Assembly (NCBI GenBank): GCA_943329845.2
Contig: CALQFM020000025.1
Coordinates: 1 to 51,449, forward strand
Direction: 5' to 3'
Source of the DNA: Candidatus Kuenenia stuttgartensis
GTDB taxonomy: Bacteria > Pseudomonadota > Alphaproteobacteria > SMXS01
Length of the DNA: 51,449 bases
The translations under genes were made by a program, and so were the position numbers. Of the stretch, positions 48,040 through 51,449 are shown piece after piece (positions within the stretch are counted from its first letter, which is position 1; every line of letters begins with the position of its first letter). Below the pieces are notes generated by a model. That model saw only the letters and a program-made list of their open reading frames with translations. It was not told the DNA's origin and made no database searches.

Positions 48040-48344
48040 TTTCCAAACACCAACGCCACCCGTGGGCGAACCTTCGCTGACGGGTGGGTATCCTCGGACA
48101 CGAAAACACAGCGCTTTCGTTGAGCGGCGCGGAACCTAGGCGCGACGCGGCGGAGAGTCAAGCGTGGAGGGGCCGGACGGGGTCGATGACGACGCCGGGA
48201 TGGTGACCGTTTGGACGGTCGGTCCGCGGCTTCGGTCGTGGATTGTTGGAGTTCAGCCTCGTTTCGGTGCTAATGTACCGTTCCGGACAGACCCTATGAT
48301 GTCGATCGATTGGCAATGGAAGCTCGAAGCCGGCAGGACGCTCA
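48040..48344. other. Divergent intergenic region between ffh and the HWE kinase gene
   Basis: This 305-bp region holds the ffh leader hairpin described separately and must contain the divergent promoters of ffh and the kinase gene. I find no protein-coding frame with family similarity and no clear near-consensus promoter on either strand. Confidence 0.5.
48056..48087 (-). promoter_or_regulatory. Structured hairpin in the ffh leader
   Basis: CCACCCGT (48056-48063) and ACGGGTGG (48080-48087) form a perfect 8-bp stem, and inside it GCGAA (48066-48070) pairs with TTCGC (48073-48077) after a 2x2 internal loop. It lies 17 bp upstream of the ffh start codon. I recall that an alphaproteobacterial ffh leader RNA motif has been catalogued, but I cannot confirm that this is a member. 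Confidence 0.5.
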
Positions 48345-49397
48345 ATGCCAAACAAGGTCAACAAGTCTGAGGATCAACAGGACGCGGAAGCCGAGGTCAA
48401 AGGCTTTCATGACGACCTGGGTCCATTCGTGGTCGCGGCGGAGGCGACGCGTATGGAGATGGTGTTTGCCGACGCGGGTCAGCCCGGAAATCCGATCATT
48501 TTTGCCAACGATGCCTTTCTCTCCCTGACCGGATACGCCAGGGAAGAGGTACTGGGCCAGAGCTTCAATTTCCTGATGGCTCAGGGCGCCGACGCCGAGG
48601 CACTGGGACAGGTCGCGGAAGAGTTCGAGGGGCATGGGACCGGCGGTTCGGAAATCCTCTACCGCCGGAAGGATGGCAGTGAGTTCTGGGCCGCTCTGTT
48701 CATTTGCCCCGTTCGCGATCAGGACGAAAAGATCGTTCAGTATTTCGCGTCGTTCGTGGACCTGACCAGGCATCGGGACGAAGAAACCCGATCCAAAATG
48801 CTGATCGACGAGTTGAACCACCGGGTCAAGAATACCCTCGCTACGGTACAGGCCATCGTCTGGCAGGCTCTGCGAACCGCGAATGATCCATTGGTCATCC
48901 GGCAGGCGATAGGGTCTCGGCTGTTTGCGCTTTCCCGGTCACATGATCTGCTGACGCGCGAAAACTGGCAGGGCGCGGGACTCCATGATCTGATCCGCGA
49001 TACGCTGGAGCCGTTCGGGGTGACGCATGACCGCAGAGACCGCATCGTGATTGCTGGCGAGAACGTACGCTTTCCCCCCAAGGAGGCATTGGCTCTCAGC
49101 ATCGCCTTCAACGAACTTGCCACCAACGCCGTCAAATATGGCGCTCTGGCGAACGAGACGGGATCGATCCTTGTCGATTGGAGCGTCGAGACGACACAGG
49201 GCGGCCCCCGGTTGCTCCTGCAGTGGCGGGAGAAGGGCGGCCCGGCCGTTACGCCGCCTGCGAGGAAAGGGTTCGGCACGCAGATGATCGAGCGGGGTCT
49301 TGCACACGAGCTGAGAGGCACCGTCCACCTCGATTATCGCGAGGAAGGCTTGGCGGTCACGATGGACATTCCCGCACCGGGCGCGCGCGATGGATAA
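48345..49397 (+). CDS. PAS-domain HWE-family sensor histidine kinase
   Basis: The 350-residue soluble kinase has an N-terminal LOV-like PAS domain (about residues 35-140, NPIIFANDAFLSLTGY) and a PAC segment ending ASFVDLTRHR. The HWE-type dimerisation region follows, with the phospho-accepting His159 in MLIDELNHRVKNTLATVQA. Its ATP-binding part has the N box FNELATNAVKYGAL and the family Trp-x-Glu in LLQWREKGGP (Trp294, Glu296). The LOV photoactive Cys position (GxNCRFLQ) reads GQSFNFLM, Phe74 for Cys, so it is unlikely to bind flavin as a photosensor. No membrane segments are visible. A response-regulator gene starts within its last codons. Confidence 0.93.
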   Translation: MPNKVNKSEDQQDAEAEVKGFHDDLGPFVVAAEATRMEMVFADAGQPGNPIIFANDAFLSLTGYAREEVLGQSFNFLMAQGADAEALGQVAEEFEGHGTGGSEILYRRKDGSEFWAALFICPVRDQDEKIVQYFASFVDLTRHRDEETRSKMLIDELNHRVKNTLATVQAIVWQALRTANDPLVIRQAIGSRLFALSRSHDLLTRENWQGAGLHDLIRDTLEPFGVTHDRRDRIVIAGENVRFPPKEALALSIAFNELATNAVKYGALANETGSILVDWSVETTQGGPRLLLQWREKGGPAVTPPARKGFGTQMIERGLAHELRGTVHLDYREEGLAVTMDIPAPGARDG

Positions 49398-49826
49398 TCT
49401 GCTTGCTGGACGCCGTGTCCTCGTCGTGGAGGACGAGACCCTCATCCTCATGATGATTGCCGTGTCCTCGTCGTGGAGGACGAGACCCTCATCCTCATGA
49501 TGATTGAAGCCATGCTGCAGGATCTCGGATGCGAATCCGTCACTTCTGCCGGTACCTGCAATCAGGCGATCTCGCTGATCGAGAGCCAGGTCTTCGATGC
49601 GGCGATGCTGGACATGAACCTGGATGGGCGTGACAGTCAGACTGTGGCCGACGCGCTTGCCACGCGGGGCGTGCCCTTCCTCTACTCGACCGGCAACACT
49701 ACCGGCCATGACCTGAAAAAGGGTTTCAATGGGCGCGCCGTGCTCCGCAAGCCGTTCAGCTTTGAGGAATTGACCGCCGCCCTGGCTCTTCTTCAGCCTG
49801 GTGAATCTCGGACCGCACGCGGTTAG
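49390..49826 (+). pseudogene. Single-domain response regulator, frameshifted by a 47-bp tandem duplication
   Basis: The original gene starts ATG at 49390, overlapping the kinase stop, with MDNLLAGRRVLVVEDETLIL as the first residues. A perfect 47-bp tandem duplication (49412-49458 and 49459-49505) shifts the frame, so translation from 49390 ends after about 37 codons. Removal of one copy restores a 129-residue CheY-like receiver with the acidic EDE, phospho-acceptor Asp in AAMLDMNL, Thr in LYSTGNTT and Lys in VLRKPFSF. A GTG at 49473 could start a 117-residue product, but that lacks the first beta strand. This may be a true mutation or an assembly error. Confidence 0.88.
49412..49505 (+). repeat. 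Perfect 47-bp tandem direct repeat in the response regulator gene
   Basis: The 47-bp unit starting GCCGTGTCCTCGTCGTGGAG and ending CTCATGATGATT occurs twice back to back, with no mismatch. Because 47 is not a multiple of three it changes the reading frame of the response regulator. Confidence 0.97.
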
Positions 49827-49935
49827 GTGCGAGGCGGACCGGCACCGCCAGAGCAATCAGCAGACGATCCTCTTCAACACGATCGACCCTTAGCCGTCGT
49901 TGGACACTACGAGGTTAAGTGGCAACGGGTTTGCC

Positions 49936-51281: not shown

Positions 51282-51300
51282 TTTGGTGACAGTGCAGTTA

Positions 51301-51449
51301 TGGACTGCACCCGGTTTGTGAGACACGTCTAATTGAGTGACCTGGCGATATTGCCATGGTTAGCGCTGTTGACGGAATGGCCGCGTTCTTCTTCGAACTC
51401 GACCGGCGGCTTGTATCCGAGCGCCGAGTGGAGGCGCTGTGCATTGTAG
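51301..51449 (-). mobile_element. IS3-family insertion sequence, 3' end (cut by window end)
   Basis: The terminal repeat TGGACTGCACCCGGTTTGTG at 51301-51320 resembles IS3-family ends, which usually begin TGxACTGCACCC. Inward from it lies the end of a transposase OrfB. The element continues beyond the window. Confidence 0.8.
51329..51448 (-). CDS. IS3-family transposase OrfB, C-terminal fragment (partial at window end)
   Basis: The last 39 residues begin YNAQRLHSALGYKPPVEFEE and end IARSLN. The YNxxRLHSALGYxPPxxFE segment is the C-terminal integrase-core signature of IS3-family DDE transposases. The N-terminal part and catalytic residues lie outside the window, so intactness is unknown. It may belong to the same IS type as the remnants at 1-191. 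Confidence 0.88.
   Translation of the reverse strand, partial: YNAQRLHSALGYKPPVEFEEERGHSVNSANHGNIARSLN

Follow-up and report, generated by a model that had tools for sequence, protein, structure and literature searches.

Known regulators and known duplications

HWE histidine kinases are defined by a histidine in the N-box and a W-x-E motif in the G1 region. MrrA and SdrG are FATGUY single-domain response regulators that receive phosphate from several HWE/HisKA2 kinases, according to the available text of two papers (PMC5964349, PMC5898713). The accessible part of the former gives the FATGUY motif as PFxFATG(G/Y) and cites Sma0114 as a regulator associated with an HWE kinase (PMC5964349). The locus described here resembles those of Sma0114, SdrG and MrrA in that it contains a lone receiver adjoining an HWE kinase, with its best structure matches in this group. 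In contrast to them, its receiver gene is broken by a tandem duplication and is not situated at an ECF sigma factor locus.

Short tandem duplications have been described in several bacteria. Among Xenorhabdus variants, 3 of the 25 distinct lrp mutations are tandem duplications of 26–116 bp; phase variation was rejected by the authors for the lrp mutations, and none of the eight lrp mutants tested reverted genetically, the available text of the paper not stating which of these carried a duplication (PMC6786866). The E. coli topA R168C mutator produces head-to-tail duplications in galK that, in the part of the paper at hand, are independent of pre-existing repeats, as is the duplication reported here; they measure 2–19 bp compared with 47 bp in the present case (PMC6954433). 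Tandem repeats in M. tuberculosis promoters switch copy number at 1e-2 to 1e-3 per chromosome, and the one unit whose length appears in the accessible text, that at dop, measures 57 bp (PMC12817950).

The window, i.e., the whole stretch of DNA analysed (51,449 nucleotides), belongs to a draft assembly of 107 contigs. Its duplication can be regarded as an already known kind of event, with precedents in Xenorhabdus lrp: as far as the available text of that study goes, both are two-copy duplications of tens of base pairs within a regulator gene, although the lrp mutations come from isolates with a changed phenotype, whereas the present case was seen once, in one draft genome. The favoured reading, to which a probability of about 0.7 is assigned, is an ordinary chance tandem duplication that caused loss of function in a probably imported two-component pair.

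The kinase gene and the duplicated 47 bp

The kinase gene occupies positions 48345–49397 of the forward strand; its open reading frame is intact and encodes a 350-aa protein with a PAS domain and an HWE histidine kinase domain. The PF07536 (HWE_HK) match scores 90.6 bits, against a cut-off of 22.8, and the PAS_9 match scores 65.2 bits, which agrees with the preliminary description of this DNA, where an HWE-type kinase had been recognised beside a response regulator. The ELNHR...NTL motif is common to the kinase and its three aligned relatives, and the WRE of the G1 region is present (W294, E296). The N-box, encoded at 49107–49130, reads FNELATNA, while the other three of the four alignment rows have (F/L)HEL. 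The asparagine presumably stands at the N-box histidine position of the family and, judging from the alignment, could mean a changed or weaker kinase activity.

Two units on the forward strand, 49412–49458 and 49459–49505, are identical at 47 of 47 positions and are followed by one extra matching base at 49506 (a 1-bp junction homology, G). Tandem Repeats Finder reports the same stretch, 49412–49506, with a period of 47, 2.0 copies and a 100% match. This is the sole perfect tandem duplication with a period above 15 bp in the window (periods of 10–600 bp were scanned), and chance falls far short of explaining a perfect repeat of a 47-mer. The additional 47 bp cause a frameshift, and the response regulator translated from ATG 49390 ends after 36 residues at a double stop, TGA TGA, at 49498 and 49501 (remnant at 49390–49500, forward strand), and no complete receiver is now encoded from the gene's own start. 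When one of the copies is removed, this ATG opens an unbroken 129-aa receiver that continues up to TAG 49824; the ATG overlaps the kinase stop TAA (49395–49397) by 8 nt. The preliminary description had claimed two identical 47-bp units, a frame shift with loss of the regulator next to the kinase, and restoration of a complete receiver overlapping the kinase stop when a single copy is kept; both Tandem Repeats Finder and a script bear this out, and every coordinate checked was correct.

After the duplication, the receiver sits in the frame of the kinase, which is open from just past the kinase TAA. The complete receiver reading frame (RVLVVEDE..., 49461–49826, forward strand), recognised by the Response_reg match in the read-through product, lacks a start codon of its own (ATG, GTG or TTG) ahead of strand 1. 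Further downstream, the stop TGA 49498 of the truncated frame and a receiver-frame ATG at 49497 share bases (ATGATGA). The receiver is now one TAA away from forming a hybrid kinase, a point that the preliminary description had missed.

Relatives, receiver family and genomic slot

A contig search found eight relatives of the kinase, and the neighbourhoods of three (L010, L011 and L012) were compared. The nearest related pair, in L010 (a Sphingomonas MAG), has a kinase 64% identical and a receiver 54–55% identical to those of the window; its single intact receiver (118 aa), which starts at an ATG overlapping the kinase gene's end, contains one copy of the duplicated stretch. In L011 (Aurantimonas; kinase 49% identical), an overlapping gene has an intact N-terminal receiver, also with one copy. 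The L011 gene (4058–5431) encodes 457 aa, in which the receiver is fused to an apparent second PAS-HWE kinase. No receiver was found in the stretch available behind the kinase of L012 (38% identical). Since both relatives that have a receiver carry a single copy, the duplication is derived, and the earlier view that one copy is the ancestral state holds in this comparison. The repeat tract is not kept in these homologues (two of the three relatives compared, eight having been found).

Ten genomes of the order, two of them 78% and 84% complete, were searched with the kinase, and at E ≤ 1e-70 the nine other than that of the window gave no match; the same ten genomes were also searched at 1e-80. 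When 385 genomes of the class were searched at E ≤ 1e-75, the window itself was the only hit among the matches listed, with no more than five candidates scored. At the DNA level, a search of the genus with the pair returned, apart from the window itself, short matches of 50–179 bp only. The receiver was also sought in viral contigs, where 26 pattern stretches were found and none was confirmed.

PF00072 is the only Pfam family matched by the receiver frame and no output domain was found, so the protein is a single-domain regulator. By sequence, the best solved-structure matches are 2lpm/2m98 (5.7e-20), entered under the title 'Two-component response regulator' and taken here to be Sma0114 of Sinorhizobium meliloti, followed by SdrG, 5ieb (5.8e-19). 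The modelled chain that includes strand 1 also has 5ieb as its top Foldseek match (E 5.7e-08, TM 0.79). The motif in the window, PFLYSTGN (PFVFSTGY in both L010 and L011), matches the FATGUY motif partially, with three departures: Y for F, S for A and N for G/Y.

Residues E2, D3, D47, T73 and K93 (numbering of the GTG open reading frame) are invariant in the receiver alignment, and we take them to be the key receiver residues by role; their intact state would also fit continued use. In the comparison with L010, pN and pS are 0.293 and 0.686 for the receiver part after the duplication, and 0.215 and 0.635 for the kinase; as synonymous sites are near saturation, these values allow nothing finer. 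Over the greater part of its history, the receiver was constrained. No additional stop or frameshift was found in it, and a frame with no further damage fits either a young event or a frame still in use.

The pair is located in a variable slot next to ffh (48172–49933, unstranded), delimited by divergence from six congeners. Homology with all six stops just upstream of ffh, at 48162–48175 (within 14 bp); G005 aligns again from 49934 and G004 from 50343. Over the roughly 1.5 kb upstream of ffh that was compared, none of the six congeners contained any of the pair. The GC content of the slot is 60.3%, whereas genome samples of the same size average 65.9% (sd 2.3), which places the slot at their 1.9th percentile. 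Given the low GC content and the divergence of all six congeners at this place, the pair looks imported and is probably dispensable in the genus. The counterpart of the slot in G005 is a 166-residue open stretch (L134:688–1185), and G004 has about 90 bp there, followed by a methyltransferase region.

Elsewhere in the genome, an intact single-domain regulator (C6:86848–87183) is flanked by an ECF-type sigma factor on one side and a further HWE kinase on the other, and this is the probable core general stress response locus. The ECF-type sigma factor on C6 (L148:802–1851) also matches PhyR_sigma2, and a similar arrangement was seen in G006.

Origin and consequences of the duplication

No microhomology beyond 1 bp was found at the duplication junction. 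DNA folding of the one- and two-unit stretches was similar to that of shuffled sequences (z −0.53 and −0.77, respectively), and hairpin-driven slippage was rejected as a cause. The 1-bp homology and ordinary folding disfavour simple slippage between existing repeats and favour a break-repair or replication accident. A topA-type mutator was also considered and rejected. TopA was compared with that of five congeners (G005, whose only match was a weaker one of 801 aa, was left out), and its 11 private columns, five of which form one insertion, all lie from residue 604 on, the congeners having 1–37; as the first 603 residues have no private change at positions common to the five congeners, there is no sign of such a mutator. 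The preliminary description held that the duplication must be recent. The identity of the 47-bp units and the undamaged frame behind them are compatible with a recent event but give no date for it, and 'must' is too strong.

An error by which the assembly wrongly repeated 47 bp, one of the options raised earlier, is unlikely, even though the genome is a draft. Perfect tandem duplications were sought in 1,189,335 bases of the same genome (60 stretches), which together with the window amount to 1.24 Mb, or 34% of the genome. Besides the 47-bp case, periods of at least 30 bp comprised one of 30 bp within an array of 15-bp units where a contig begins, one of 35 bp and one of 54 bp in a repetitive stretch. 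A fixed-k joining error would be expected to recur, and no second 47-bp duplication was present in the 1.24 Mb, so a systematic artefact of this type was rejected. The contig of the window ends in an IS-like end (51300–51449) common to five other contigs near their ends; these have about 139–149 bp in common with it, a mismatch being present in one case, and one runs 13 bases further, which suggests assembly overlaps well above 47 bp. On the other side stands the 35-bp duplication (C5:37415–37485, L051:17415–17485), which is likewise exact and two-copy with 1-bp junction homology and is absent from all six congeners; this private case in the same draft leaves room for a technical cause shared by both. 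The control relative, G003 (two contigs), has no perfect duplication with a period of at least 30 bp in 660,000 bases (0.66 Mb), which also speaks for an artefact. The scan and the contig-end overlaps make an artefact less likely without removing it. As to its position, the 35-bp duplication lies between hrcA-like and grpE-like genes (named by eye) and duplicates the start region of the grpE-like gene, the gene-proximal copy keeping the ATG.

Continued production of the receiver, whether from GTG 49473, through a restart at ATG 49497 or as a read-through kinase–receiver hybrid, is decidedly improbable, although an open frame exists for each route. When the kinase TAA is read as a residue, the product has 493 aa with PAS, HWE_HK and a full-length Response_reg domain (45.6 bits over profile positions 1–110), joined by a 21-codon stop-free linker; read-through of TAA is rare. 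Restart at ATG 49497 after TGA 49498 would give a product lacking the first strand and the acidic pair, and the receiver frame has no ATG, GTG or TTG between the kinase TAA and GTG 49473. The frame of the GTG restart in the second copy, suggested by the preliminary description, does exist (49473–49826, forward strand, 117 aa; PF00072 41.9 bits, profile from position 4), but its product is without strand 1 and is predicted to fold much less well. It was modelled alongside a chain with four more residues, each with the same two relatives, in three-row alignments that make a weak but matched comparison: the GTG product reaches a mean pLDDT of 56.0 and a pTM of 0.48, compared with 78.3 and 0.73 for the longer chain. 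In the GTG model, strand 1 is missing, strand 2 is not formed and the acidic pair is drawn into the first helix. Even so, Foldseek aligns this low-confidence model with receivers (5ieb, E 5.0e-05, TM 0.68), giving 4 matches at E ≤ 0.001 versus 392 for the longer chain. The landing of the receiver in the kinase frame is not taken as design, since a frame-shifting insertion has a roughly even chance of it (two frames). It is hardly to be expected that the locus has been caught midway between a two-gene pair and a hybrid kinase, in a state from which contraction could return two genes.

A reversible on/off switch, in which loss of one of the two copies by contraction brings the receiver back at a useful frequency, is very improbable. 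Identical neighbouring copies are in principle able to contract, the remaining frame is intact and the M. tuberculosis promoter repeats, as described in the available text (PMC12817950), do switch. Against this, there are only two copies, the two compared relatives that have a receiver (L010 and L011) have it in single copy, the kinase is in no other of the ten genomes of the order at E ≤ 1e-70, and the eight Xenorhabdus lrp mutants showed no genetic reversion in the part of that paper at hand (PMC6786866). With two copies only and no repeat in the relatives compared, the earlier suggestion of an evolved switch is not upheld. The same applies to an adaptive loss of function: nothing tested points to selection, and the pair sits where all six congeners diverge beside ffh. 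Apart from the general ability of tandem duplications to contract, nothing supports switching or adaptation.

In the preferred reading, a chance 47-bp tandem duplication with 1 bp of junction homology would have frameshifted an accessory single-domain response regulator of the Sma0114/SdrG type (FATGUY-like), whose gene overlaps that of the PAS-HWE kinase and is presumably co-transcribed with it. We infer that the organism truly carries the duplication, that the event is recent and that it arose through a repair or replication accident; selection for it was probably not involved. The regulator would be lost, its own start giving rise to a 36-aa peptide. The kinase, left without a neighbouring receiver, may act on other receivers of the genome, and cross-talk of the orphaned kinase is possible.

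The locus appears as a clear single case of decay in a probably imported two-component gene. It also calls for caution, since an exact tandem duplication alone, without reads, should not be taken as a phase switch. If the locus switched or fused, it would illustrate a route by which overlapping gene pairs can give rise to hybrid HWE kinases, through a single mutation and the loss of a stop.
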